Shown here piece after piece: positions 4,057 to 60,469 of a stretch of 64,000 bases of DNA. The DNA comes from Allocoleopsis franciscana PCC 7113 (GTDB lineage Bacteria; Cyanobacteriota; Cyanobacteriia; Cyanobacteriales; Coleofasciculaceae). The DNA lies in assembly GCF_000317515.1 (NCBI RefSeq), contig NC_019738.1, forward strand, positions 4,986,001 through 5,050,000, given 5' to 3'. A program made the translations under genes and the position numbers. Numbering within the stretch: the stretch's first letter is position 1; the number at the start of each line of letters is the position of its first letter. The notes beneath the pieces were generated by a model that saw only the letters and a list, made by a program, of their open reading frames with translations, was not told where the DNA came from and ran no database searches.

Positions 4057-5013
4057 TTACCGAATCTTTAGACGTTTACGAGTAACTTGACGAGACAAAA
4101 TACTGCTGAGCAAAACCAGTCCAATCAGAACAATAGAAGCTGTCCAAGCAAGTTGGTTTTGCTGTTTGTAAGGTGAGCTAGCGTAGTTGTAAATTAATAC
4201 CGATAGGGAAGGGGTTGGTTCCAACAAGCCTTGCAGCGACAGTTTAGGCCAGAATTGAGTAGAACGAGCTGTGAAGATGAGAGGTGCGGTTTCCCCGGCA
4301 GCACGGGCAACGGCAAGCAGAACACCAGTCGTGATGCCAGGGAGCGCTGAGGTGAGTACAATGCGGACGGTAGTTTGGAAGCGTCCACCTCCTAAGGCAG
4401 CGGAGGCAAGACGGTGGGAGGTGGGAACCAACTTTAAGGCTTCTTCTGCACTTAAAGCCACAATGGGAAGCATGATAACGCTCAGGGCAAATCCACCTGC
4501 GATCGCTGAAGCACCTTTCGTGGTGAGAACGATGACGCCGTAAGCAAAAACACCGACAACAATTGAGGGAACGCTACTCAGGATAACGATGATAAAACGG
4601 ATATAGTTAGCAACAGCAGAACCTTTGCTAAACTCCGATAAAAAGATACCCGTCATTACGCCAAAAGGAACGCTGAATAAAAAAGCAATTCCTACCATCA
4701 TCAGCGTTCCTACAATGGCATTGGCAAAGCCATTAGTTCTGTTCTCTATGCCCTCTGGTGCAGGTAGAGAAACGAGTACTTCTGGTAGGGGAACTGGTAG
4801 GCCGAAAAGATGTACTTCCTGCAACTTCATTAGTTGAGGAAACCCTTGACGTAGAAGCTCCAATAAGATGGCGAACAGGGGTAGTAGTGCCGCAGCCGTC
4901 AGTGTGAAGGCAAGTAACGTCATGCCAATGCTGAATGCAGTTCGAGCTAATGACAGGGGTTGATGAATTTCTTGCTCTAGGGATTCGTCTAAAATGTTTT
5001 GCTCAGTAGTCAT
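4057..5013 (-). CDS. pstA: phosphate ABC transporter permease PstA
   Basis: This 318-residue inner-membrane permease has about six hydrophobic helices and a long periplasmic loop after the first helix. The BPD-transport EAA-type loop is visible around [23 protein letters not shown], followed by [22 protein letters not shown], a signature of PstA. It forms the translocation pore with PstC and is driven by PstB. It is third in the pstS-pstC-pstA-pstB order, 116 bases downstream of pstC; that gap holds a 10-bp hairpin. Confidence 0.96.
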
Positions 5014-5129: not shown

Positions 5130-6140
5130 CTATAGCGATAGAGAACCGAGTATATTTTCAATTCGTTTCCCGCTGATTAACTGAACCATCAACACGGCGA
5201 TCATGTTAACAATTAGGGTAATCACAAATAAAATTAGCGCTAAATACATCAAAGCTCCAATATGAAATTTATCTAAGGCTTCTGCAAATTGATTGGCTAA
5301 AACGGCTGGGATGGTATAACCAGCCGCCAAAAGTGAGGGACTGATTTGAATGGAATTACCAATCACCATTGTTACTGCCATCGTCTCTCCCAAGGCACGC
5401 CCCAAAGCAAGAATGACTGCTCCTAAAATTCCCGATCCGCCTGTTGGCAACACAACATTCCAAATTGTTTCCCAACGAGTTGCGCCCAAAGACATGGAGG
5501 CACTTCGCAACTCCTGAGGCGTGACTAGCAAAACTTCCCGACTAATGGCAGCGACTGTGGGCAAAATCATAATCGCCAGGACAATTCCTGCTACGAACAT
5601 CCCAGGCCCAAAGGGTTCGGTATTAAACAGGGGTATCCATTGGAAATGGTCGAATAGCCACTGCTGAAAGGGGAGCAGGAAGGGAATCAACACAAAAATT
5701 CCCCATAGACCAATAATGACACTGGGAATGGCAGCGATGAGTTCAACGAGGAATGCTAAAGGCGATCGCACCCATTGGGGTAAAAAATCTTCGCTGGTGA
5801 CAATGGCTACCGCTAATCCTGTAGGTACGGCTAGCAACAGCGCCAGTGCTGAACTAACCAGTGTTCCATAGATAAACGGTAGAGCACCAAACTTCTCCTG
5901 CCCTACATTCCAGGTTTTGCTCCACAAGAAAGGTAGACCGAATTGCTGAATGGCTGGCGCGGCATCTTTATAAATTACCCAGCTCATCCAGAACAGCACT
6001 CCTGCTGTTGCCAATGCAATAGTCCAAACCAAACCTGTAAATCCGTACTCTAGCCAGATACCCTCTCCTTCTGTGCTTGTGAGATCTATATCAAAGCCAG
6101 CTTCTATAGAAGTGTCGGTTTGCTCAGAGAAATCAGTCAT
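5130..6140 (-). CDS. pstC: phosphate ABC transporter permease PstC
   Basis: This 336-residue inner-membrane permease partner of PstA has an N-terminal cytosolic stretch of about 30 residues, TM1 at about 36-58, and further helices. The cytoplasmic coupling loop is LRSASMSLGATRWETIW, followed by LPTGGSGILGAVILALGRA and the family signature GETMAV. It follows pstS after a 297-bp gap containing a long palindromic repeat. An acidic, charged N-terminus is usual for cyanobacterial PstC. Confidence 0.96.
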   Translation of the reverse strand: MTDFSEQTDTSIEAGFDIDLTSTEGEGIWLEYGFTGLVWTIALATAGVLFWMSWVIYKDAAPAIQQFGLPFLWSKTWNVGQEKFGALPFIYGTLVSSALALLLAVPTGLAVAIVTSEDFLPQWVRSPLAFLVELIAAIPSVIIGLWGIFVLIPFLLPFQQWLFDHFQWIPLFNTEPFGPGMFVAGIVLAIMILPTVAAISREVLLVTPQELRSASMSLGATRWETIWNVVLPTGGSGILGAVILALGRALGETMAVTMVIGNSIQISPSLLAAGYTIPAVLANQFAEALDKFHIGALMYLALILFVITLIVNMIAVLMVQLISGKRIENILGSLSL

Positions 6141-6437: not shown

Positions 6438-7478
6438 TTAGCGGGCTGCAACGTTGGTGGATACTTCTTGCTTCGCCCGACTCGCTACAGTTTGCGGAAT
6501 CTGGGTATAGCCTAGCTGACCGTTGATAGCTTGACCTTTAGTCAGAATCCAATCAACCATCTTTTTAATGACTGGCGCTTTCTGAGCGTCATACTCTTTT
6601 TTGATGAGCAGCCAAGTTACGCCAGCAATGGGATAGCCATCCGCTGGGTCTGATGCGCCGCTTACATTGAAATCAGAGCCAAAACTGATGGCAGATAATG
6701 CCTTATTCGCCTCAGCCAGGGTGGGCGAAACAAACCGATTAGTCTTATTCTGCACCTGAGCTTGCTGAAGGTTGTTCTGAGAGGCGTAGGCAGCCTCTAC
6801 ATAACCGATCGCACCTTCTGTTTGTTTTACTAAAGCAGCTACACCAGGGTTGCCTTTACCACTGAGGGGGGTTCCTACCCAAGTGGGAGCAGCATCGGGT
6901 GGAATTTTGCTCTTGAAGGCGGGACTAATGGCAGCCAAGTGGCTGGTGAATATTTTCGTGGTGCCGCTGCCATCGGAACGGACTGCTAATCTAATGGGTT
7001 TGTTGGGCAGTTTCGCGCCTGGGTTATCGGCAGCGATTTTAGGGTCGTTCCAACGGGTGATTTCGCCCATGAAGATAGCAGGCAGTACCGATCGCGATAA
7101 CTTGAGATTAGATACGCCAGGGACATTGTAAACCACTGAAACAGCGCCGCCTGCTGTTGGCACTAGGATTACACCCTTTTTCATCTGGCTCTTATCTTCA
7201 GCCTTGGGATAGGAATCACTGGCACCGAAGTCAACTGTGTCAGCGATGAACTGCTTAATGCCGCCACCGCTACCAATTCCTTCGTAGTTGACCTGAATCC
7301 CTGTTTCCTTTTTGAACTGGTCAAAGTAACGGTCGTACAGGGGTTTTGGGAATGTTGCTCCGGCACCGTTTAAGGTCACGGTTTGAGCGATCGCAGTATA
7401 GACTGAACCGAATGAAAAGGCGATCGTTGCTGTTGAAACCGTAACAGCACGACGCAAACCGTTTGTCAAGAAAACCAT
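6438..7478 (-). CDS. pstS: phosphate ABC transporter substrate-binding protein PstS
   Basis: This 346-residue periplasmic phosphate-binding protein has a signal peptide of about 31 residues ending near TAIAQ. The mature protein has LNGAGATFPKPLYDRYFDQF and YEGIGSGGGIKQF, both PstS phosphate-pocket segments, then RSDGSGTTKIFT, and ends with a helical tail. No lipobox Cys is present, so it should be freely periplasmic. AAGGAAG lies about 7-13 bases upstream of the ATG. It is the first gene of the pst operon, and the upstream region carries a three-unit PHO-box-like repeat. Confidence 0.97.
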   Translation of the reverse strand: MVFLTNGLRRAVTVSTATIAFSFGSVYTAIAQTVTLNGAGATFPKPLYDRYFDQFKKETGIQVNYEGIGSGGGIKQFIADTVDFGASDSYPKAEDKSQMKKGVILVPTAGGAVSVVYNVPGVSNLKLSRSVLPAIFMGEITRWNDPKIAADNPGAKLPNKPIRLAVRSDGSGTTKIFTSHLAAISPAFKSKIPPDAAPTWVGTPLSGKGNPGVAALVKQTEGAIGYVEAAYASQNNLQQAQVQNKTNRFVSPTLAEANKALSAISFGSDFNVSGASDPADGYPIAGVTWLLIKKEYDAQKAPVIKKMVDWILTKGQAINGQLGYTQIPQTVASRAKQEVSTNVAAR

Positions 7479-7610: not shown

Positions 7611-7904
7611 AAGATTATCCTCTTTTTTTATGGTATTTAGTGGCTAAAAAGTTGTAAGTTATTACCGTAATATTATTAATTTTCCCTTAATTTAATTTTG
7701 ACTTAGCAATCCTTATTTAAGGATTGGGAAAAGGTCTGCTTATTACAGCCAAAGTCAATCAGTAAGATTTCAAAAGCATTATTAAATTCAGCCAGCGTTA
7801 TTGGTCGCCAGAGCGATAAGCCTGACGACATGCAACGCTTAGGCGCTATGACTATCAAGCCCTTTACTCCTAACCCTACCAAGCCATATCGCCAAAGTAC
7901 ATCG

Positions 7905-9080
7905 ATGAATCAGTCTTACTTCCTTAAAAACTTACCTACGCCCCTGCAAACGTTATGGCGGCCTATGCTGCTGATTTCCTTAGGGTTGCATGGCCTATTG
8001 CTAGCCGTACCCATGCCGTCACATCGTAAGCCTCAACCCCCTAAAAAAGAGCCAGAAAAGGTAAAAATTACGCAGTTACCAACTACGCCACCGTCCCCTC
8101 ATCCCGCTATTAGACCCACTCCTAAACCGACTCCTCAGGTACGTCAGACGATTCCTCCCAAACCGAAACCCATTCGCCCACCTTCAACCGCGATACCTCC
8201 CTTACCTCCTAAAACAAAGGCAATTCCGCGACCTCAACCGTCGCCAACTCCAGAAAAAACACCGCAGTCAAAAGCAACACCAACGCCATCCCCAACACCA
8301 ACGCCATCACCAATTCTAGAGCAATCACCACAGTCAGCCGCGACATCAACGCCATCCCCAACACCAACTCCAGAAGCATCGCCAACTCCTGCTCTACAAA
8401 ACCCCTTTGCAGATTTTCCCTTTCCAGACAATGCTCAGCTTGGTTCATTGGGTTTACTGTCCGGAGAAACTGACAAATCAGCACGTAACACAATAGATGC
8501 ACTCGCTCAAGTGGCTGACTTCTACACCAAAGAACTACCAGCCAGGACATTCAAGTCTCAACCTCTTAACGAGGCAACAGACTTAAAAGTTTATAAAGTC
8601 TCTAAGGAAGGAGCTGAGCCTCAATTTCTGCATTTAATTGCCCAAGATGGAAAAACAGTAATTGTTCTGGCATCCCAAGAAATTAAAGACCTAAGTACTT
8701 TGAAGAGTGCAGAAACACGAAGTCCTGAGGAAATTGCTTTTGAAAATGCGCTTGCACCGATTAAAAGCAGTGAAGACTTCGGTGCAGTTTTTCCTGAGGA
8801 TATTACTAAGCTCCCTGAACCTGATAAATTTGCTGATGCCAACAAATTCCGAAGCATAGTTGCAACAACAACATTTAAACCGATGTCTACTGAACAATTA
8901 TTCTCAGAAGTTCAATCTCAACTAATCGGCGCTGGGTTTGCACAAATTTCTCAAGAAGCCTCTTATGGGGGTGGACTCACCTATAAAGTCACACAAGGGA
9001 ATTTCACCACTTATCTCTACTTTGTTGCGAATGCAAATAATAAGATAATATTTTTTGTGTCGAAGGATTCTCCGTTCTAG
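7905..9080 (+). CDS. TonB-like protein A with non-canonical C-terminus
   Basis: About 391 residues. It has a short cytosolic start (FLKNLPTP), one transmembrane anchor with the TonB-hallmark SxxxH pattern (SLGLH), a basic PPKKEPEKVKITQLP stretch, and a Pro/Thr/Ser-rich spacer of about 125 residues with PTPSPTP repeats. Two small globular segments follow (about residues 165-260 and 275-391). The C-terminus does not show the classical TonB CTD motifs. Paralogue B starts MKPLDFLKKLPTP and aligns to the ATG at 7905; upstream in-frame ATGs at 7830 and 7848 would add an unmatched extension. It probably transmits proton-motive energy from the ExbB/ExbD complex encoded convergently downstream; its outer-membrane partner is unknown. 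Confidence 0.75.
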   Translation: MNQSYFLKNLPTPLQTLWRPMLLISLGLHGLLLAVPMPSHRKPQPPKKEPEKVKITQLPTTPPSPHPAIRPTPKPTPQVRQTIPPKPKPIRPPSTAIPPLPPKTKAIPRPQPSPTPEKTPQSKATPTPSPTPTPSPILEQSPQSAATSTPSPTPTPEASPTPALQNPFADFPFPDNAQLGSLGLLSGETDKSARNTIDALAQVADFYTKELPARTFKSQPLNEATDLKVYKVSKEGAEPQFLHLIAQDGKTVIVLASQEIKDLSTLKSAETRSPEEIAFENALAPIKSSEDFGAVFPEDITKLPEPDKFADANKFRSIVATTTFKPMSTEQLFSEVQSQLIGAGFAQISQEASYGGGLTYKVTQGNFTTYLYFVANANNKIIFFVSKDSPF

Positions 9081-9430
9081 TCGTAGAGACATTTCCGTGG
9101 TTCGACGTTAGCGAAGCGTTAGTGGTCAGGAGATCACTGTTCGTTGACTCCTCTATCTGGCAATTTTTTTTAATTTATGCATCTAATTGGCCTATTTTTA
9201 CGTCTTGATCTAGAAAGAAGTAAGGGTGCAGAGATTGTTCACTCGCCTAATGGGGGACTCACGCCAAATTTTCCTCTAGACGCCGTAGGTAGTAGGTTGT
9301 GTTCATCACGTACTATAACGGTAGAGTGGCTGCGCGAGTCCTGACCTCTTAATTGCTCATGCTCACTTTTGAGTCCAGCTAAGATCAAGTTTGGCTGAGT
9401 TTCGCCTAGCCATCGCATCCCAGTACGTTT
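9081..9430. other. 350-bp spacer between the two TonB-like genes
   Basis: No supportable gene. A short palindromic motif of the GTTAGCGAAGCGTTAG kind occurs near 9108-9123. The spacing suggests gene B has its own promoter, but none is clear. Confidence 0.4.
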
Positions 9431-10747
9431 ATGAAACCGCTTGACTTTCTGAAAAAGTTGCCGACTCCAGCACGGATGGTGTTTCGACCCATGCTGATGA
9501 TGTCTCTCGTGCTGCATGGCGTAGTCCTAATGCTACCTATATCGTTGGACATCAAAAAGTCTGAACCTCCCAAAAAAGAGGAAACCGTCAAGATTACAAA
9601 GTTACCTCTTGCTGCCAAATCCTCTTCGCAGATTTCTCCTCAATCTTCCCTAAAAACGACTCTTCAACTTACCCCTCAGGAACGTCAGGTCAATCTTCGC
9701 CCAACTTTTCAGGAACGTCAGGTCAATTCTCCCAAAATTACGGTTACTCCTCCGGTACGCCAGATCAATTCTTCTCCAAGGCAGCCGATTAATCAGAAGT
9801 TAGTTAACTCTGATACCTCTGAGACAAAAAAGCTACAGGAAAACTCTCCAACGTCACAAGAGTCAACTCAAAAATCACAAGACCCAGCCCAAAAATCACA
9901 AGAACCAACTCAAACGTCCCAAGAGTCAACTCAAAAATCACAAAATTCAACTCAAAACTTGCAAGAGTCAACTCAAACGTCACAAGACTCCACTCAAGAG
10001 CCTACTGTAGCCCAAAAAATCATCAGTTTTTTTGCCACCTTTCCTCGTTATCCAGGAGCTGAAAAAGGTTCGGGTGGTGTATTACGGCCTGAGTTTGACG
10101 ATGCCACTTACATATTTCATACAGAAGATAATTTAGCCAGCGTAGCTTCTAAATTTGAGAAAGAACTCCTGCCGACTGAAAACTTTACTCGCCCCAAACC
10201 TATTAGTGACGAGGCTAATTTTAAAACTTATGAAGTCTCTAATTCTACAGGCAGTGAAACAAACTATCTTTATTTAATATTTAAAGATAACAAAACAGCT
10301 ATTTATTTAGAAAAAGAAAATTACACTCTTGCCCAATTAATCAAGGAGCAAACAGAAGAGAGAAAAAATCAACTGCTGGGGGGATTTATTCTGGCTGGTA
10401 TTGAACAAATTAAGCCCCAGTATAAGCTCGACAATTTTAACCCAGCCAATGATTTTGATCGACTTGAGGAGAAGGAGAAATTCAAAGCTCAAAAGTTTGA
10501 TTTAAAAAAGGCGAAAAAAACAACAGCAGATAATCCAATATCTGAAGAAAAACTGATTTCTAGTCTGGAAGATCAACTCAAACTTTTTAATTTTGATTCC
10601 TTGTCACTAGAAGGTAAATATGGGACAAGTACTGTTTACAAAGCAAAGCAGGGTACATCTGCAACTTATCTAGTCTTAGCTCCGGCAAAAGATGATCAGG
10701 GTAAGCCTATCACAGTGATTATCTTATCTGAAGAAAAGCCGAGTTAG
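9431..10747 (+). CDS. TonB-like protein B with heptad-repeat spacer
   Basis: This 438-residue paralogue of the preceding protein has the same N-terminal pattern (FLKKLPTPARMVFRPM), a transmembrane anchor with SxxxH (SLVLH), and the conserved EPPKKEETVKITKLP. The spacer is not Pro-rich: it holds ERQVN repeats and about seven tandem STQxSQx heptads (about residues 141-190). The C-terminal part again has two globular segments (about 195-300 and 325-438) sharing YPGA, a helical region, and a Y-V...YLYLI strand pattern with protein A. No classical TonB CTD is visible. It ends 13 bases before the stop of the convergent exbD, so the two sets meet tail to tail. Confidence 0.75.
   Translation: MKPLDFLKKLPTPARMVFRPMLMMSLVLHGVVLMLPISLDIKKSEPPKKEETVKITKLPLAAKSSSQISPQSSLKTTLQLTPQERQVNLRPTFQERQVNSPKITVTPPVRQINSSPRQPINQKLVNSDTSETKKLQENSPTSQESTQKSQDPAQKSQEPTQTSQESTQKSQNSTQNLQESTQTSQDSTQEPTVAQKIISFFATFPRYPGAEKGSGGVLRPEFDDATYIFHTEDNLASVASKFEKELLPTENFTRPKPISDEANFKTYEVSNSTGSETNYLYLIFKDNKTAIYLEKENYTLAQLIKEQTEERKNQLLGGFILAGIEQIKPQYKLDNFNPANDFDRLEEKEKFKAQKFDLKKAKKTTADNPISEEKLISSLEDQLKLFNFDSLSLEGKYGTSTVYKAKQGTSATYLVLAPAKDDQGKPITVIILSEEKPS
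9853..9999 (+). repeat. 21-bp in-frame tandem repeat within TonB-like gene B
   Basis: About seven degenerate 21-bp units of the type CAAGAGTCAACTCAAAAATCA encode STQKSQE-type heptads. The spacer length is probably variable between strains because of slippage. This would tune the reach of the protein across the periplasm. Confidence 0.8.
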
Positions 10748-10759
10748 CGAAGAAAAATT

Positions 10760-11173
10760 TCATCCACCCTCAATAGCTAAAGAAACGCGATCGCCTCCCA
10801 CATCCCGCATTTCTCCTAATAGCTGAATAACTTGTTCGTAGGGCACTTTACTATCCGCTTTGAGTAATACCGCACCTTGGGGATTTTGAGTTACATACAC
10901 TTTCATTTGCTCAAACAACTGCTCTTTACCCACAGGTTGGTTACCCAGAAAAATTTTCCCTTGTTCCTTGAACTCTGCGATTAAGGGTTCTGGTAAGTTT
11001 TGCTGAGCAGCACCCGCCTCACCGCTTGGTAACTGCACATCCACACCTTCCTGGGTAGTCAACATCATGGAAGTCATCACAAAAAATGCCAGGACTCCCA
11101 TCATGACGTTGAGCATTGGGATAAGGTCAATTGTCGGTATTCCTGAGCTTTGTCGCTGGCTTTTAAATCGCAT
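10760..11173 (-). CDS. ExbD/TolR-family protein, Asn variant (ExbD-2)
   Basis: This 137-residue ExbD/TolR-type stator has one N-terminal transmembrane helix and a periplasmic domain with the ILLKADSKVPYEQVIQLLGEM region typical of the family. The membrane segment reads IDLIPMLNVMMGVLAFF. The position of the essential proton-carrying Asp of ExbD (Asp25 in E. coli, PFIDV) is Asn22 here, while residue 16 is Asp. The neighbouring ExbD has the opposite arrangement. It is last in the exbB-exbD-exbD operon, 32 bases after the other exbD. It may be a structural subunit in a heteromeric stator or use Asp16 for proton transfer. Confidence 0.9.
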   Translation of the reverse strand: MRFKSQRQSSGIPTIDLIPMLNVMMGVLAFFVMTSMMLTTQEGVDVQLPSGEAGAAQQNLPEPLIAEFKEQGKIFLGNQPVGKEQLFEQMKVYVTQNPQGAVLLKADSKVPYEQVIQLLGEMRDVGGDRVSLAIEGG

Positions 11174-11205
11174 GACCGAGAATGAAAATTTTGATTTTTG
11201 TTGGC

Positions 11206-11628
11206 TTAACTGCGTTCGATGGATAGAGAGACTCGACTGCCGCCAATTTTACTCATTTCTTTTAAGAGTTTTACCACCTCTTCATAAGCTAATTCACGGT
11301 CTGCCTTTAAAATCACAGTTCCCTCTGGATTTTGAGCGAGGTAGGCTTGCATCTTTTCTGATAGCTGAGCAACACTGGCTACTTGACTATCGAGTAAGAT
11401 TTCACCTTGGCGATTCAGTCCAATGACTAGAGATTCCGTGGCTTTCTGCTCACTCTCACCTGCTCCAGCACCGGCTATACCGGGTAGATTAATCGTTCCT
11501 AACCTCTGACCTGTTAGGGTCATGGATGTAATGATAAAAAACGTCAAAACAGACATCATCACATCCATCATTGGCACCAGATTGACCTCTGGTATTGAAG
11601 AGCTTTGTTGCTGATTTTTAAACCGCAT
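11206..11628 (-). CDS. ExbD/TolR-family protein, canonical Asp (ExbD-1)
   Basis: This 140-residue ExbD/TolR homologue has an N-terminal transmembrane helix VNLVPMMDVMMSVLTFFII, with the conserved proton-binding Asp22 in PMMDV. A periplasmic domain follows with VILKADRELAYEEVVKLLKEM. With ExbB it should form a proton-driven motor. It starts 14 bases after exbB ends, and the second exbD follows 32 bases later, so all three are one transcription unit. The first ten residues (MRFKxQ.QSS) are near identical between the two ExbDs, indicating a recent duplication. Confidence 0.92.
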   Translation of the reverse strand: MRFKNQQQSSSIPEVNLVPMMDVMMSVLTFFIITSMTLTGQRLGTINLPGIAGAGAGESEQKATESLVIGLNRQGEILLDSQVASVAQLSEKMQAYLAQNPEGTVILKADRELAYEEVVKLLKEMSKIGGSRVSLSIERS

Positions 11629-11642
11629 TTTTCACTTAACCT

Positions 11643-12356
11643 TCAGTATTTTTCTGAAGAAGAAGAAAACGTATCATTAACGTAGGCAGTCGAGGGAGGC
11701 AAGGCAGGGTTTGAGTTGACTGTAGAGGGTTCGTACCAAACTTGGCGATAAATCAGTTCTAGTTCACTACCCACTTCAGCAAAGTAATCGATTTGCCGGG
11801 ATTGTAATGTTACTAATATTCGGAAAACGAGTAAGGCAATAATCGCCACAATCATACCTGCCGCCGTAGTAATCAATGCCTCACCGATACCGGCGGCAAC
11901 TCTTGAGGCTTCGGCGGTTGTACCCCCACCGCCAATTTTGAGGTTGTTGAACGTACCAATTAGACCGGTTACCGTTCCCAGTAATCCTAATAGAGGAGCC
12001 ATCGCAACAATGGTTTCTAGAAGCTTGTCTCCTTTTCGCATTTGCACGAATTCCTTATCACCTGCGGCTTCCATGGCTAGACGAAAGGTTTCGGGTGTGG
12101 GTTGCCGGAGCTTCAAAGGGGCATACAGAAAGCGACCGATCGGTAAATGACGAGCATAATCAGCGGCTTCGGCGGCTTTTTGCAGGTCATAACGAGCCGC
12201 ATCTAGGACATCACGCACGATGCGATCTTCTTGGCTCAAAAGCCTGAACCAAAACCAGACTCTTTCTAGAGCACAAGATATGGTGAAGATGGACAACGCC
12301 AAAATCGGCCACATCACTGGGCCGCCTTGGAGGAACAAATCAAATACGCGGGTCAT
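11643..12356 (-). CDS. ExbB/TolQ/MotA-family proton channel protein
   Basis: This 237-residue membrane protein has the family opening FLQGGPVMWPILALSIFTIS, a cytosolic loop, and the conserved core IVAMAPLLGLLGTVTGLIGTF (about residues 112-132). A final helix, GEALITTAAGMIVAIIALLVF, lines the proton path with ExbD. It heads the exbB-exbD-exbD operon that converges on two TonB-like genes. By family it powers outer-membrane transport or envelope maintenance; the TonB-like partners argue for the Ton type. The C-terminal 30 residues are Ser/Pro-rich and probably disordered. Confidence 0.93.
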   Translation of the reverse strand: MTRVFDLFLQGGPVMWPILALSIFTISCALERVWFWFRLLSQEDRIVRDVLDAARYDLQKAAEAADYARHLPIGRFLYAPLKLRQPTPETFRLAMEAAGDKEFVQMRKGDKLLETIVAMAPLLGLLGTVTGLIGTFNNLKIGGGGTTAEASRVAAGIGEALITTAAGMIVAIIALLVFRILVTLQSRQIDYFAEVGSELELIYRQVWYEPSTVNSNPALPPSTAYVNDTFSSSSEKY

Positions 12357-12611: not shown

Positions 12612-14405
12612 TTAAGAGACTGCGATCGTTATTTGATATCCCTTCCCCTTTTTTTCTATCTTGAATGTGCTACAAGACTGTATAAACTTCACCAAGTTAT
12701 CACCCAACTTTAACTCTTTAATAATTGCAGAAACAGGTTTGCCGTATTGCTTGTGAAATTCACTCCCTAAAATTTCAAGAGGTATTTTATTCTGTGGCGA
12801 TTTAGCTACTAAAGATTTCAGTATATTGAATAAATACCGTTCCAATTCATTGGATGACTTGATTTCACACAAAGACGATTGAGAGAGTATGACTTGAGCA
12901 TTGCTTCCACTATTTTCAATAGTAAAACTTGTACATGATTTTAAGAATTTAGTTAAATTACTTCCAAGTTTTAGCTTTTTTGTAATTGAATTGGCTGATT
13001 CACCAGAAACTGTCTTTAGCATTGAACCCAGTTTTGATATCGGGATTTTACCCCCTGGAAAATCAGCTTTTGTTGATTCAATGACCTTAATAATTACTTG
13101 TTCAAGTTCTTGCTTAGAATTAATCTTATTAATCGCTAAATTAATATTTGTTTTAGCTGAATCAGCTTCTTCTAGACCTGCTTTTTTAAGACTAGATAAT
13201 GGGGCTTGGTCTTCAGAATCCAAACTAACTTCAGCTAATGTTTTAGATGCCAATCTAAGTTCTGATTGTTTATAAGAATGATTAATGTCTCGGACATCAA
13301 TAGAAGAAGCATCAAACAAGTTGATATAAATTTCTGACTTATCGGAAACTTGATGAATGCTAAAAATAGCAGGATTATCAATAAAAATATCCCTGGCTCT
13401 TTTACCAGGTAAATGATGAGAGACAACTTGACTAATAGATATTTGAGATGTTTCTTGAAATAAACTAGAGATTTGAGATAGCCTTATCCAATGATTATTT
13501 GTTCGTTTTTGCTCCGATTGGATTAACACTTTCAACTGATTAACGAAATCCTCTAAAGAGGGAATTACTCGTATAGGTTCGAGGTAATGGGTTTGCGTTT
13601 GATGGGTTTGGGTATTAAGAATGTTGATTATATTACCTTGTTGTCGAATTTGATACACGTTCAATCCGTGAGTTTGCAGGGTGTTGCAAAGGTGTGTTAA
13701 AACACCATCAGACGAGCAGACTAAAACCTCTCTGGCTGTTGGGTAATGCACAAAAATTGACGAACCAACCGTAGCCATTTTCACATCAGCACTATCCTTG
13801 GCAGCAGGTACATGAATCAATTCGTAACCGCGATTGTGAAATTCAACATCTTGCTTGCCCATGTTGCGCCAGTTGGCAAAGGCAATTTTAATTTGAATAG
13901 GGTAATTACAAATGCCTTCTAAAAATTTTTCAGTATTGGCATTGATTTGTAAATTTTCAGCATCAAGCAGCAAGATAGCAATTCCGTTAGAAAACTGGTT
14001 TGATTTTTCCGCTATAGGTGATGATAATGGCTCATTTGCCTGTGCGGTATTCTCACAAACGATAGGATTAGACTCGGCTAATTGCTGAATTACAGGACAA
14101 AGTTTGCTAATCAAGTTACTGAAATGAGGTAACTCAAAGTAGTTGGGAATCAGCAAAATCTCTAGAAATTTCTGCACCTTCCGAATTAAGAGTTCCTGGT
14201 CTTGAGTATTGCTGATTCCTGCTTCCAGCTTTACCCGCAAGGTAGACCGATGGCGGGTATCATGCCAAGGAATCGTTCTGTATTTTTCCTTCAAAAATTC
14301 AGGCTGCTGCTGCTGGATTTCCAGGATAGCTTGATAGACACAAAAACTAATTTTGTGAATCACAGCAGAATCATTAGCTGGTGTCACGTTGGTGTTATCT
14401 GACAT
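12612..14405 (-). CDS. NYN-domain (PIN-like) nuclease with LOTUS/OST-HTH repeats
   Basis: This is a 597-residue protein. A helical N-terminal region (about 1-130) precedes a NYN domain (about 140-265) with acidic residues Asp148 in LLLDAENL, Asp207 in DSADVKMA and Asp233 in SSDGVLTHL, the layout of a metal-dependent PIN-like RNase. Downstream are one diverged (about 305-355) and two clear LOTUS/OST-HTH domains (about 450-515 and 525-595) sharing KLGxNLxKFxxSCxxFxIE. LOTUS domains bind RNA or protein partners, including G-rich RNA. A sequence-specific RNA decay or RNA-defence role is plausible but unproven. It lies upstream of exbB with a 255-bp gap, so it is probably a separate transcript. 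Confidence 0.85.
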   Translation of the reverse strand: MSDNTNVTPANDSAVIHKISFCVYQAILEIQQQQPEFLKEKYRTIPWHDTRHRSTLRVKLEAGISNTQDQELLIRKVQKFLEILLIPNYFELPHFSNLISKLCPVIQQLAESNPIVCENTAQANEPLSSPIAEKSNQFSNGIAILLLDAENLQINANTEKFLEGICNYPIQIKIAFANWRNMGKQDVEFHNRGYELIHVPAAKDSADVKMATVGSSIFVHYPTAREVLVCSSDGVLTHLCNTLQTHGLNVYQIRQQGNIINILNTQTHQTQTHYLEPIRVIPSLEDFVNQLKVLIQSEQKRTNNHWIRLSQISSLFQETSQISISQVVSHHLPGKRARDIFIDNPAIFSIHQVSDKSEIYINLFDASSIDVRDINHSYKQSELRLASKTLAEVSLDSEDQAPLSSLKKAGLEEADSAKTNINLAINKINSKQELEQVIIKVIESTKADFPGGKIPISKLGSMLKTVSGESANSITKKLKLGSNLTKFLKSCTSFTIENSGSNAQVILSQSSLCEIKSSNELERYLFNILKSLVAKSPQNKIPLEILGSEFHKQYGKPVSAIIKELKLGDNLVKFIQSCSTFKIEKKGKGYQITIAVS

Positions 14406-14528
14406 GGGTGTCCCCAGTAAGTGATGGTGAGGCGACTAGCCCCCGAAGTTTTCAGGAGGCGATCTTACTGTTTCAGATTCCCATCATAATAGAAATAGAA
14501 ATGGCTTCATATTTCTTAATTCATCACT

Positions 14529-16037
14529 ATGGCAAGAGACCTGCGGGGATTCATCAAACAGTTGGAAGAACGGGGGCAATTGCGCCGAATTAAGGCTTTA
14601 GTTGACCCAGATTTGGAAATTGCCGAGATTTCTAACCGAATGCTGGCTGCCGGTGGCCCTGGCTTGCTGTTTGAGAACGTGAAAGGGTCATCCTTTCCGG
14701 TAGCGGTGAATCTGATGGGTACCGAGGAACGGGTGTGCTGGGCGATGAACATGGAACATCCCCAGGAATTAGAAGTACTGGGGAAGAAGCTGGGAATGTT
14801 GCAACAGCCGAAGCCACCGAAGAAGATTTCCCAGGCTGTGGAGTTTGGTAAAGTTTTGTTTGATGTGGTGAAAGCCAAGCCAGGACGAGACTTTTTCCCA
14901 GCTTGTCAGCAGGTGGTACTTGAAGGAGATGCCCTAGATTTAACCCAAATACCGCTGATTCGCCCTTATCCAGATGATGCTGGCAAGATTATCACCCTGG
15001 GATTGGTGATTACGAAAGATTGTGAAACGGGTACCCCGAATGTGGGGGTTTATCGGCTACAGCTACAATCCCGGAACACGATGACGGTGCACTGGCTATC
15101 GGTGCGGGGGGGGGCGAGGCACCTGAGGAAAGCGGCGGAACAGGGGAAGAAGTTAGAAATTGCGATCGCCCTCGGTGTCGATCCCTTAATCATCATGGCA
15201 GCCGCCACTCCCATCCCCGTTGAACTTTCCGAATGGCTTTTTGCCGGACTTTATGGCGGTTCGGGTGTAAAGCTAGCCAAATGCAAGACAGTGGATTTAG
15301 AAGTGCCAGCCGATTCCGAATTTGTGTTAGAAGGGACGATTACACCAGGGGAAGTGTTACCCGATGGCCCTTTTGGGGACCACATGGGTTATTACGGTGG
15401 GGTGGAAGATTCGCCCTTGATTCGCTTCCAGTGCATGACGCACCGCAACGATCCGATTTATATGACGACGTTTAGTGGGCGTCCACCCAAGGAAGAGGCG
15501 ATGATGGCGATCGCACTCAACCGCATTTACACCCCGATTCTGCGGCAACAAGTCACAGAAATCGTGGACTTCTTCCTACCCATGGAAGCCCTCAGCTACA
15601 AAGCCGCTATTATTTCCATTGATAAAGCCTACCCCGGTCAAGCGCGACGGGCGGCATTGGCCTTCTGGAGCGCATTGCCACAATTTACTTATACCAAGTT
15701 TGTGATTGTTGTGGATAAAACCATTAATATTCGCGATCCCCGTCAAGTGGTGTGGGCAATTAGTTCCAAAGTTGATCCGGTACGGGATGTGTTTATTTTG
15801 CCAAATACGCCTTTTGATAGTTTGGACTTTGCCAGCGAGAAGATAGGGTTGGGAGGACGTATGGGCATTGATGCGACCACTAAAATACCTCCAGAAACCG
15901 AGCATGAATGGGGTGAACCGTTGGAATCCGACCCAGATGTAGCTGCGATGGTGGACAGGCGTTGGGTAGAGTATGGATTGGCTGATTTGCAGCTAGGGGA
16001 AGTTAACCCCAATTTATTCGGCTACGATATCCGTTGA
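14529..16037 (+). CDS. ubiD: UbiD-family decarboxylase
   Basis: This 502-residue enzyme has UbiD features: MARDLRGFIKQLEERGQLRRI at the start, PVAVNLMGTEERVCWAM, an FMN-binding central part and the MGYYGGVEDSP region. UbiD enzymes use prenylated FMN (made by UbiX) to decarboxylate 4-hydroxy-3-polyprenylbenzoate-type acids. In cyanobacteria the homologue is placed in plastoquinone synthesis. No ubiX is in the window. The gene runs divergently from the NYN gene, with a 123-bp shared upstream region. The length matches the family. Confidence 0.93.
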   Translation: MARDLRGFIKQLEERGQLRRIKALVDPDLEIAEISNRMLAAGGPGLLFENVKGSSFPVAVNLMGTEERVCWAMNMEHPQELEVLGKKLGMLQQPKPPKKISQAVEFGKVLFDVVKAKPGRDFFPACQQVVLEGDALDLTQIPLIRPYPDDAGKIITLGLVITKDCETGTPNVGVYRLQLQSRNTMTVHWLSVRGGARHLRKAAEQGKKLEIAIALGVDPLIIMAAATPIPVELSEWLFAGLYGGSGVKLAKCKTVDLEVPADSEFVLEGTITPGEVLPDGPFGDHMGYYGGVEDSPLIRFQCMTHRNDPIYMTTFSGRPPKEEAMMAIALNRIYTPILRQQVTEIVDFFLPMEALSYKAAIISIDKAYPGQARRAALAFWSALPQFTYTKFVIVVDKTINIRDPRQVVWAISSKVDPVRDVFILPNTPFDSLDFASEKIGLGGRMGIDATTKIPPETEHEWGEPLESDPDVAAMVDRRWVEYGLADLQLGEVNPNLFGYDIR

Positions 16038-60133: not shown

Positions 60134-60421
60134 ATAGTTATTTCTGCCAGCCTGGTCTAGGTTGTTTTGAGAGTTTGAGTTAACTAACAGCAACAGGTCT
60201 TGTTTAAGCCCGATATTCTGAACAACGACGTTGATCGACAACTTCAAAAAGTTTAGTGTGATCGGACGTCCAGATGTTTTGCAACTCCTGACTAAAACCT
60301 CACTCAGAACCAGCATCGAGGTTCTCGATATTCGCATTTTGTCGCCAAATTGCTCAAAATCGATCCGGAGGTGGTGGCTCGTTTTGGAATAAAGGAATGG
60401 TAGATGCACCCTGATTAATAT

Positions 60422-60445
60422 CCCCAGCTCTTAACAGGGCTGGGG
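60422..60445. terminator. strong intrinsic terminator between convergent genes
   Basis: CCCCAGC (60422-60428) and GCTGGGG (60439-60445) form a stem; on the plus strand GTTTCCTTATTTTT follows. It can stop read-through from the cobK side and may also serve the alpha/beta hydrolase gene. The stretch 60134-60421 has no gene I can support. Confidence 0.7.
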
Positions 60446-60469
60446 GTTTCCTTATTTTTGTCTCTTTGC

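Follow-up and report, generated by a model that had tools for sequence, protein, structure and literature searches.

A Ton-like gene module with a tandem-domain transducer tip beside the phosphate importer genes of Allocoleopsis franciscana PCC 7113

Introduction

In the cyanobacterium Allocoleopsis franciscana PCC 7113, two adjacent genes for TonB-like proteins, here called A and B, lie between the phosphate importer genes pstSCA and an exbB-exbD-exbD operon. What would a Ton-type motor do next to an ATP-binding cassette (ABC) importer? We analyzed this locus in a stretch of 64,000 nucleotides (the window; NC_019738.1, positions 4,986,001 to 5,050,000) from a genome of about 8 Mb (G000). Both proteins carry a TonB-like transmembrane motif and a long linker, and both end in a duplicated domain instead of the TonB tip; their relatives recur in many genera beside ABC importers. 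We favor, with moderate confidence, the reading that the module is a Ton-like system driven by the proton motive force and dedicated to the Pst phosphate importer.

Results

Composition of the module

The open reading frames, their strands, their order and their coordinates were as given in an initial annotation that had been made from the DNA letters alone (Table 1). A and B converge tail to tail on the exbB-exbD-exbD operon and diverge from pstSCA on the other side. ExbB and both ExbDs matched their Pfam models (PF01618 and PF02472) well above the cut-off, and residues 105 to 196 of ExbB, the only part covered by the PDB alignment, aligned with solved ExbB. Within the pst operon, Pfam and NCBIfam were applied to pstS only. 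Homologues of pstC occur in 238 of the 242 genomes of the class (E ≤ 1e-20); hence, pstC is not specific to the module. The pieces of the module, their order and the exchange of the tip described below are solid.

Table 1. Features of the module and its surroundings (positions in the window; pLDDT, predicted local distance difference test; pTM, predicted template modeling score)
Feature	Position	Strand	Remarks
pstA, phosphate ABC importer permease	4057-5013	-	Open reading frame; name based on its place and on the conserved order of the operon
pstC, phosphate ABC importer permease	5130-6140	-	Open reading frame
pstS, phosphate-binding protein	6438-7478	-	TIGR00975, 307.8 bits, above cut-off
Pho-box-like triple direct repeat (8 bp + 3 bp spacing)	7675-7704	+	pstS/A divergent intergenic region
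TonB-like protein A	7905-9080	+	391 amino acids; ATG at 7905, orthologues have the same start; transmembrane helix with S25xxxH29, KKE stretch, 127-residue Pro/Thr linker, two-domain C terminus
A, tandem beta-alpha-beta4 domains	8406-9077	+	Residues 168-391; model ma2d5f46e4f86, mean pLDDT 85.7, pTM 0.55
TonB-like protein B	9431-10747	+	438 amino acids; transmembrane helix with S25xxxH29, KKE stretch, 159-residue repeat linker, two-domain C terminus
B, 21-bp tandem repeat encoding linker heptads	9854-9997	+	Tandem Repeats Finder, 6.9 copies, 77% matches
B, tandem beta-alpha-beta4 domains	10028-10744	+	Residues 200-438; model m0e97ac58e509, mean pLDDT 86.3, pTM 0.54
exbD2	10760-11173	-	PF02472, 86.3 bits; Asn22 codon 11108-11110
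exbD1	11206-11628	-	PF02472, 94.2 bits; canonical Asp22, codon 11563-11565
exbB, proton-channel scaffold	11643-12356	-	PF01618, 112.7 bits

A and B are paralogues; a search of the genome with A retrieved B (37% identity; E = 4.6e-28). The initial annotation had described a transmembrane helix with an SxxxH pattern, a KKE stretch and a low-complexity spacer in each, and all three were found, the pattern being S25/H29 in both helices. In E. coli TonB, Ser16 and His20 touch ExbB in the cryo-electron microscopy structure as described in PMC12215075. Pro makes up 34% of the linker of A and 9% of that of B, which consists of low-complexity repeats. The STQxSQx heptads noted earlier in B correspond to the 21-bp tandem array, and A has a short array of 18-bp repeats (8275 to 8313).

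The claim that a classical TonB C-terminal domain is missing held up. Neither A nor B matched TonB_C (PF03544) in Pfam at E ≤ 1, and none of 14 family members did so at E ≤ 0.01. No sensible Pfam or NCBIfam family was found for A or B, and there was no Pfam match to any transducer domain. The same 14 members gave only three single-member matches at E ≤ 0.01, which by their look are low-complexity noise. We rejected a DsbG_N match, which was weak (E = 0.15) and had no support from the predicted model.

Fold of the C-terminal tip

Structure prediction (AlphaFold2; single chains, with an alignment of 11 rows) confirmed that each protein ends in two small alpha/beta segments. In A as in B, the predicted order of elements is beta-alpha-beta-beta-beta-beta, twice per tip. 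Profiles of domain 1 (78 sequences) and domain 2 (73 sequences) aligned with an hhalign probability of 97.5 (E = 3e-11). Since the two profiles are homologous, we concluded that the tip is an old duplication.

Foldseek found no match in the PDB at E ≤ 0.001. With VIA-align, the best match of B was BamC (2yh5; Z 6.4, 80 residues, 2.8 Å), and A matched the METTL16 VCR domain (Z 7.0) as well as KA1 domains and BamC (Z 6.6 to 6.8; for BamC 5d0q_C, Z 6.6 over 77 residues at 2.6 Å). TonB and TolA were absent among the Foldseek and VIA-align matches listed, but may still be related. The BamC helix-grip domain, Flpp3, DcrB and KA1 likewise have a helix packed on an antiparallel sheet, but they match as single domains (Z about 5.6 to 6.8) with an identity of about 4 to 13% and without a demonstrated sequence relationship. 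With every Z under 8, this likeness is below the level for claiming a shared fold and may reflect a common arrangement.

Distribution of the family and its link to importers

A search with the whole of protein B was insensitive (8 of 194 genomes), and detection of the family required a profile built from the C-terminal region. With this profile, we found the family in 66 of the 242 genomes of the class, in 47 of 121 genera. In a phylum-wide draw, 12 of 194 genomes had it, all 12 from the same class; a scan of genome contigs gave only 9 loci. Named relatives with members include Coleofasciculus, Symploca and other cyanobacteria, and among the listed genomes of family f6, which we take to be the family that contains Anabaena, only G391 matched the profile. 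Members come in three forms: two-domain, first-domain-only (D1-only) and second-domain-only (D2-only).

We compared gene neighborhoods at 86 loci with 88 members from 60 genomes, a set that comprises most profile matches and omits the weakest tail; 14 further loci from closer relatives were viewed and stand outside these counts. Neighbor families were defined by clustering of open reading frames and then named by Pfam, NCBIfam and PDB. Five importer types recurred: Pst; a second Pst type (TIGR02136, Pst2); Fut, with a FutA-type iron-binding protein (best PDB match 6g7n, also 2voz and 2pt1) beside a fused double permease with matches to generic importer models; sulfate, with a sulfate-binding protein (PDB 1sbp) whose gene is adjacent at loci L115, L116, L122 and L124; and sulfonate, with a taurine/sulfonate-type binding protein. 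An SLH-OprB porin, a DUF4333 protein and a pentapeptide-repeat protein were also recurrent. The DUF4333 gene recurs by sulfate-linked TonB-like and exb genes (L112, L115, L118, L122, L125 and L149). At Fut loci, L179 and L186 among them, the pentapeptide-repeat gene recurs within the group formed by futA, futB and the TonB-like gene.

One of the five importer types lay within 6 kb of 67 of the 88 members, versus none of 20 control regions, a small set of 17-kb regions from elsewhere in some of the same genomes. The form of the protein tracked the substrate (a single member can count for two importer types). Two-domain members had an importer within this distance in 32 of 44 cases (Pst 18, across 13 genera; sulfate 7; Fut 6; sulfonate 2; Pst2 1) and go mainly with Pst, sulfate and Fut. 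The D1-only form goes with Fut iron genes (21 of 26 with an importer; Fut 19, in 17 genera) and the D2-only form with Pst2 (14 of 18; Pst2 12, in 10 genera). As a statistical association, the dedication to importers is strong, and because the module recurs in many genera, it is not a product of chance.

The TonB-like genes do accompany exb operons, as the initial annotation had led us to expect: ExbB was encoded within 6 kb of 40 of the 88 members (29 of 44 two-domain, 4 of 26 D1-only and 7 of 18 D2-only). Since ExbB is rare near D1-only members, their coupling would be in trans. A separate set of 40 loci with close ExbB homologues had been preselected for having no strong TonB-like match; 9 had a weaker match, 3 had a similar protein with a transmembrane His and 28 had none, and these loci speak against a strict pairing of ExbB with a TonB-like protein. 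The His of SxxxH is present in the transmembrane helix of 85 of the 88 members, and two of the three others lie close to contig ends; the first position is Ser in 58, Ala in 23 and another residue in 4. Median linker lengths range from 101.5 to 163 amino acids.

Other Ton components and receptors

Beyond what the initial annotation covered, the source genome has two further paralogues beside other importers. Paralogue C (D1-only) has futB within about 50 bp downstream (L004, 1489-3746; 67% identity to the query). Paralogue D lies between an ABC-3 permease gene and the start of ZnuA, among znu-like genes (L006, 4-2351). The ZnuA reading frame stops after 152 amino acids in the assembly. Elsewhere, the genome encodes two genuine TonB_C proteins and has four ExbB-family genes, one of which is adjoined by exbD and a receptor-like open reading frame. 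In one reading frame (L001, 562-2460), the TonB_C domain is internal, and a long repetitive tail rich in Pro, Ser, Thr and Glu comes after it.

The plug domain of TonB-dependent receptors was found in 154 genomes. By comparison of the lists by eye, 55 of the 66 carriers of the family have one, and 11 have no match (G005, G015, G020, G039, G125, G131, G145, G156, G186, G240 and G243). Five of these 11 (G005, G015, G020, G145 and G156) have a member beside ExbB (L115/L126, L118, L127, L148 and L161). Hence, unless the receptors there escape the model, classical receptors cannot be the partner throughout the family. The locus had been proposed to encode a complete but divergent Ton system. The data support a divergent transducer with ExbB/ExbD and a new output domain, but not completeness in the classical sense: the cluster has no receptor, and co-occurrence with receptors extends to most carriers and not to all.

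An unlike pair of ExbDs

At the site that corresponds to Asp25 of E. coli ExbD, the window's ExbD1 has Asp22 and ExbD2 has Asn22, a change that the initial annotation had not remarked on. In alignments with ExbD chains of known structure, Asn22 of ExbD2 falls on the Asp of 7ajq_F and 6tyi_Y, and Asp22 of ExbD1 on that of 7ajq_F. Among 132 ExbDs, including the window pair and two outgroups, the residue is Asp in 95, Asn in 34 and Thr in 3; these loci were picked by similarity to the window module, so they do not sample ExbDs at large, and operons that are related do not count as independent cases. The 84 loci with ExbD, the window excluded, comprise 37 with a lone Asp form, 3 with a lone Asn form and 44 operons with two ExbDs, of which 30 are Asp/Asn, 11 Asp/Asp and 3 Asp/Thr; no pair lacks Asp. 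Of the lone Asn forms, L061 has an Asp partner farther along the same contig (L072), L052 lies on a contig of just 3.8 kb, and for L161 no second ExbD is visible in the region covered.

Pair members are 24 to 53% identical. In an ExbD tree built without the column in question, the Asn/Thr forms need 7 changes versus a mean of about 30 after shuffling. Most of them cluster; L183 and L224 have separate Asn forms, each with an Asp partner. The tree was built from only 139 columns with unsettled bootstrap values, which leaves uncertain how many times Asp/Asn arose. The Asn group also has Ala for a nearby Thr (consensus LAFF versus LTFF). The window ExbD2 carries an Asp six residues before Asn22, where the consensus of the Asn group is Asn.

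PMC11658791 describes the D25N form of E. coli ExbD as inactive, and 5:2 models, as presented in PMC9389320, regard both axle chains as alike. Because of these two points, the conserved Asp/Asn pair suggests an ExbD heterodimer with one proton site. Alternatively, the Asn ExbD could belong to a separate, nonconducting complex.

A Pho-box-like repeat upstream of A

The intergenic region between pstS and A contains a triple direct repeat resembling the cyanobacterial Pho box. It has 2 mismatches in 24 specified bases, a level reached in 0 of 100 local shuffles. The 64-kb window has 2 sites with at most 3 mismatches versus 0.15 expected, and both are in this region. In 22 pstS/TonB-like intergenic regions (including that of the window), the best site was reached in at most 2 of 100 shuffles for 13 regions and in 4 to 13 for the others. 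A sigma-70 promoter scan yielded no useful promoter (1 site versus 8.5 expected).

Discussion

If the module is a motor dedicated to Pst, proton flow through ExbB/ExbD would set the single transmembrane helix of A or B in motion by way of the S25/H29 face of that helix, and the long disordered linker would transmit this motion across the periplasm to the tandem domain that replaces the TonB tip. The tip would most likely engage an outer-membrane channel or some envelope partner that is not a classical TonB-dependent receptor; this engagement would help phosphate to reach PstS at phosphate limitation. In the window, ExbD1(Asp) and ExbD2(Asn) probably pair into one axle that has a single proton site. 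The paralogues would serve iron (Fut), sulfate, sulfonate, the second Pst system and zinc alike. Because ABC importers are the partners that stay constant, the system probably imports small ions and does not take part in classical receptor-mediated uptake. In favor of this reading are the transmembrane His kept by nearly all members, the linkage to importers across genera and in the paralogues C and D, the carriers without a plug domain and the Pho-box-like repeat between pstS and A. A broader generalization is tentative and, in our view, rather less likely than not: cyanobacteria might have one receptor-independent Ton motor per ABC importer (phosphate, sulfate, sulfonate, ferric iron and zinc), powering small inorganic ions through outer-membrane channels, many on a half-inactivated ExbD(Asp)/ExbD(Asn) axle with one proton site per 5:2 unit.

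Several observations weigh against a dedicated importer motor. Adjacency does not prove joint function. No listed importer lies within 6 kb of 21 of the 88 members, and 11 of these are flanked on each side by 6.5 kb or more of sequence. ExbB is missing from the vicinity of most Fut-linked D1-only members, and Ala replaces the Ser of SxxxH in about a quarter of the family. The window cluster contains neither a TonB-dependent receptor nor an outer-membrane partner, and SLH-OprB porin genes lie within 6 kb of only 15 of the 88 members. Canonical Exb and TonB_C systems coexist in the same genome. The Pho-box-like repeats in relatives are mostly near pstS and may serve pst alone.

That the genes sit beside pst by accident is suggested by the synteny in some relatives, which includes NYN and UbiD genes without an evident link; given that Pst by itself shows the linkage in 13 genera and that other importers show it too, against none of the controls, such hitchhiking is most improbable. 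A and B could instead be divergent TonBs that energize ordinary TonB-dependent receptors, the tip being a fast-evolving TonB C-terminal domain. The transmembrane motif, the linker and the linkage to ExbBD are all TonB-like, and most carriers have plug domains. However, the predicted tandem fold and the missing TonB_C match, the carriers without a plug, a genome that already holds two TonB_C proteins and a canonical exbBD by a receptor-like reading frame, and the ABC importer neighbors make this very unlikely; on the same grounds, we rejected a canonical TonB for siderophore receptors.

An unlikely, if somewhat more credible, alternative is Tol-like envelope maintenance, in which the tips would hold the two membranes together during phosphate-starvation remodeling by attaching to peptidoglycan or to an outer-membrane lipoprotein. 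Both window ExbDs also match TolR models, below the cut-off; the structural look-alikes include BamC, an envelope lipoprotein (Z 6.4 to 6.6); and Anabaena TonB2 is proposed to be TolA-like in the account of PMC8597729. Yet Z values of this size may reflect just a common arrangement, and envelope maintenance leaves unexplained both the linkage to Fut, sulfate, sulfonate and znu importers and the match between domain architecture and importer type. The constant presence of binding-protein-dependent importers, several with the binding-protein gene adjacent, would be expected if the tips bound the substrate-binding proteins themselves and the motor sped handover to the permease or reported occupancy. 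The linkers, however, exceed the reach needed for a periplasmic binding protein, and ABC importers elsewhere function without such help, so we consider sensing or delivery distinctly unlikely as well.

A search of the literature, mostly of papers readable without subscription, found no title or opening of an abstract that reports this TonB-like family, its link to importers or Asp/Asn ExbD pairs. We rate the module as a variant of the Ton/Tol motor and its tip double domain as undescribed. It resembles E. coli TonB-ExbB-ExbD in its ExbB/ExbD families, single SxxxH transmembrane helix and long periplasmic linker, and differs in the tandem beta-alpha-beta4 tip, two unlike ExbDs, the adjacent ABC importer and the lack of a receptor in the cluster. 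The nearest studied proteins are the likewise cyanobacterial and TonB-like TonB2, TonB4 and SjdR of Anabaena PCC 7120, which are not needed for schizokinen uptake according to PMC8597729 and PMC8262864. The descriptions given there set them apart, TonB2 and TonB4 by a TonB-box binding region and SjdR by its short periplasmic part.

The family also supplies iron-linked candidates for an open problem, the transducer in Synechocystis inorganic iron uptake via ExbB-ExbD. A requirement for ExbB-ExbD in this uptake was reportedly found by Jiang in 2015. The review PMC7676907 states that the ExbB-ExbD complexes are needed and that porins and FutABC also contribute; ExbBD there acts in uptake of an inorganic ion, and the transducer goes unnamed in that account. 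The D1-only family beside fut genes is a candidate for this Synechocystis-type iron transducer. Related rods by phosphate, sulfate, iron and zinc importers hint at powered uptake of small ions without classical receptors. If this is true, Ton-type energization is not confined to bulky chelates and also reaches ordinary ions, phosphate and sulfate among them, in organisms reliant on nutrients in short supply.

The Myxococcus AglRQ/S gliding motor likewise has one ExbB/MotA-like and two ExbD/MotB-like subunits; as PMC9389320 presents it, AglQ and AglS both keep the conserved Asp, unlike the window pair, and whether they form a heterodimer or homodimers is not known. For rotary 5:2 motor models, in which the axle chains are equivalent, the conserved Asp/Asn ExbD pairs offer a test case provided by nature.

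A plasmid search gave no match. In the window, a gene for an NYN and OST-HTH/LOTUS protein adjoins exbB, followed by a gene (both within 12612-16037) that we presume to be UbiD-like. The same pair also adjoins exb in several relatives. NsiR1 (nitrogen stress-induced RNA 1) was found at 60398-60454 (53.6 bits).

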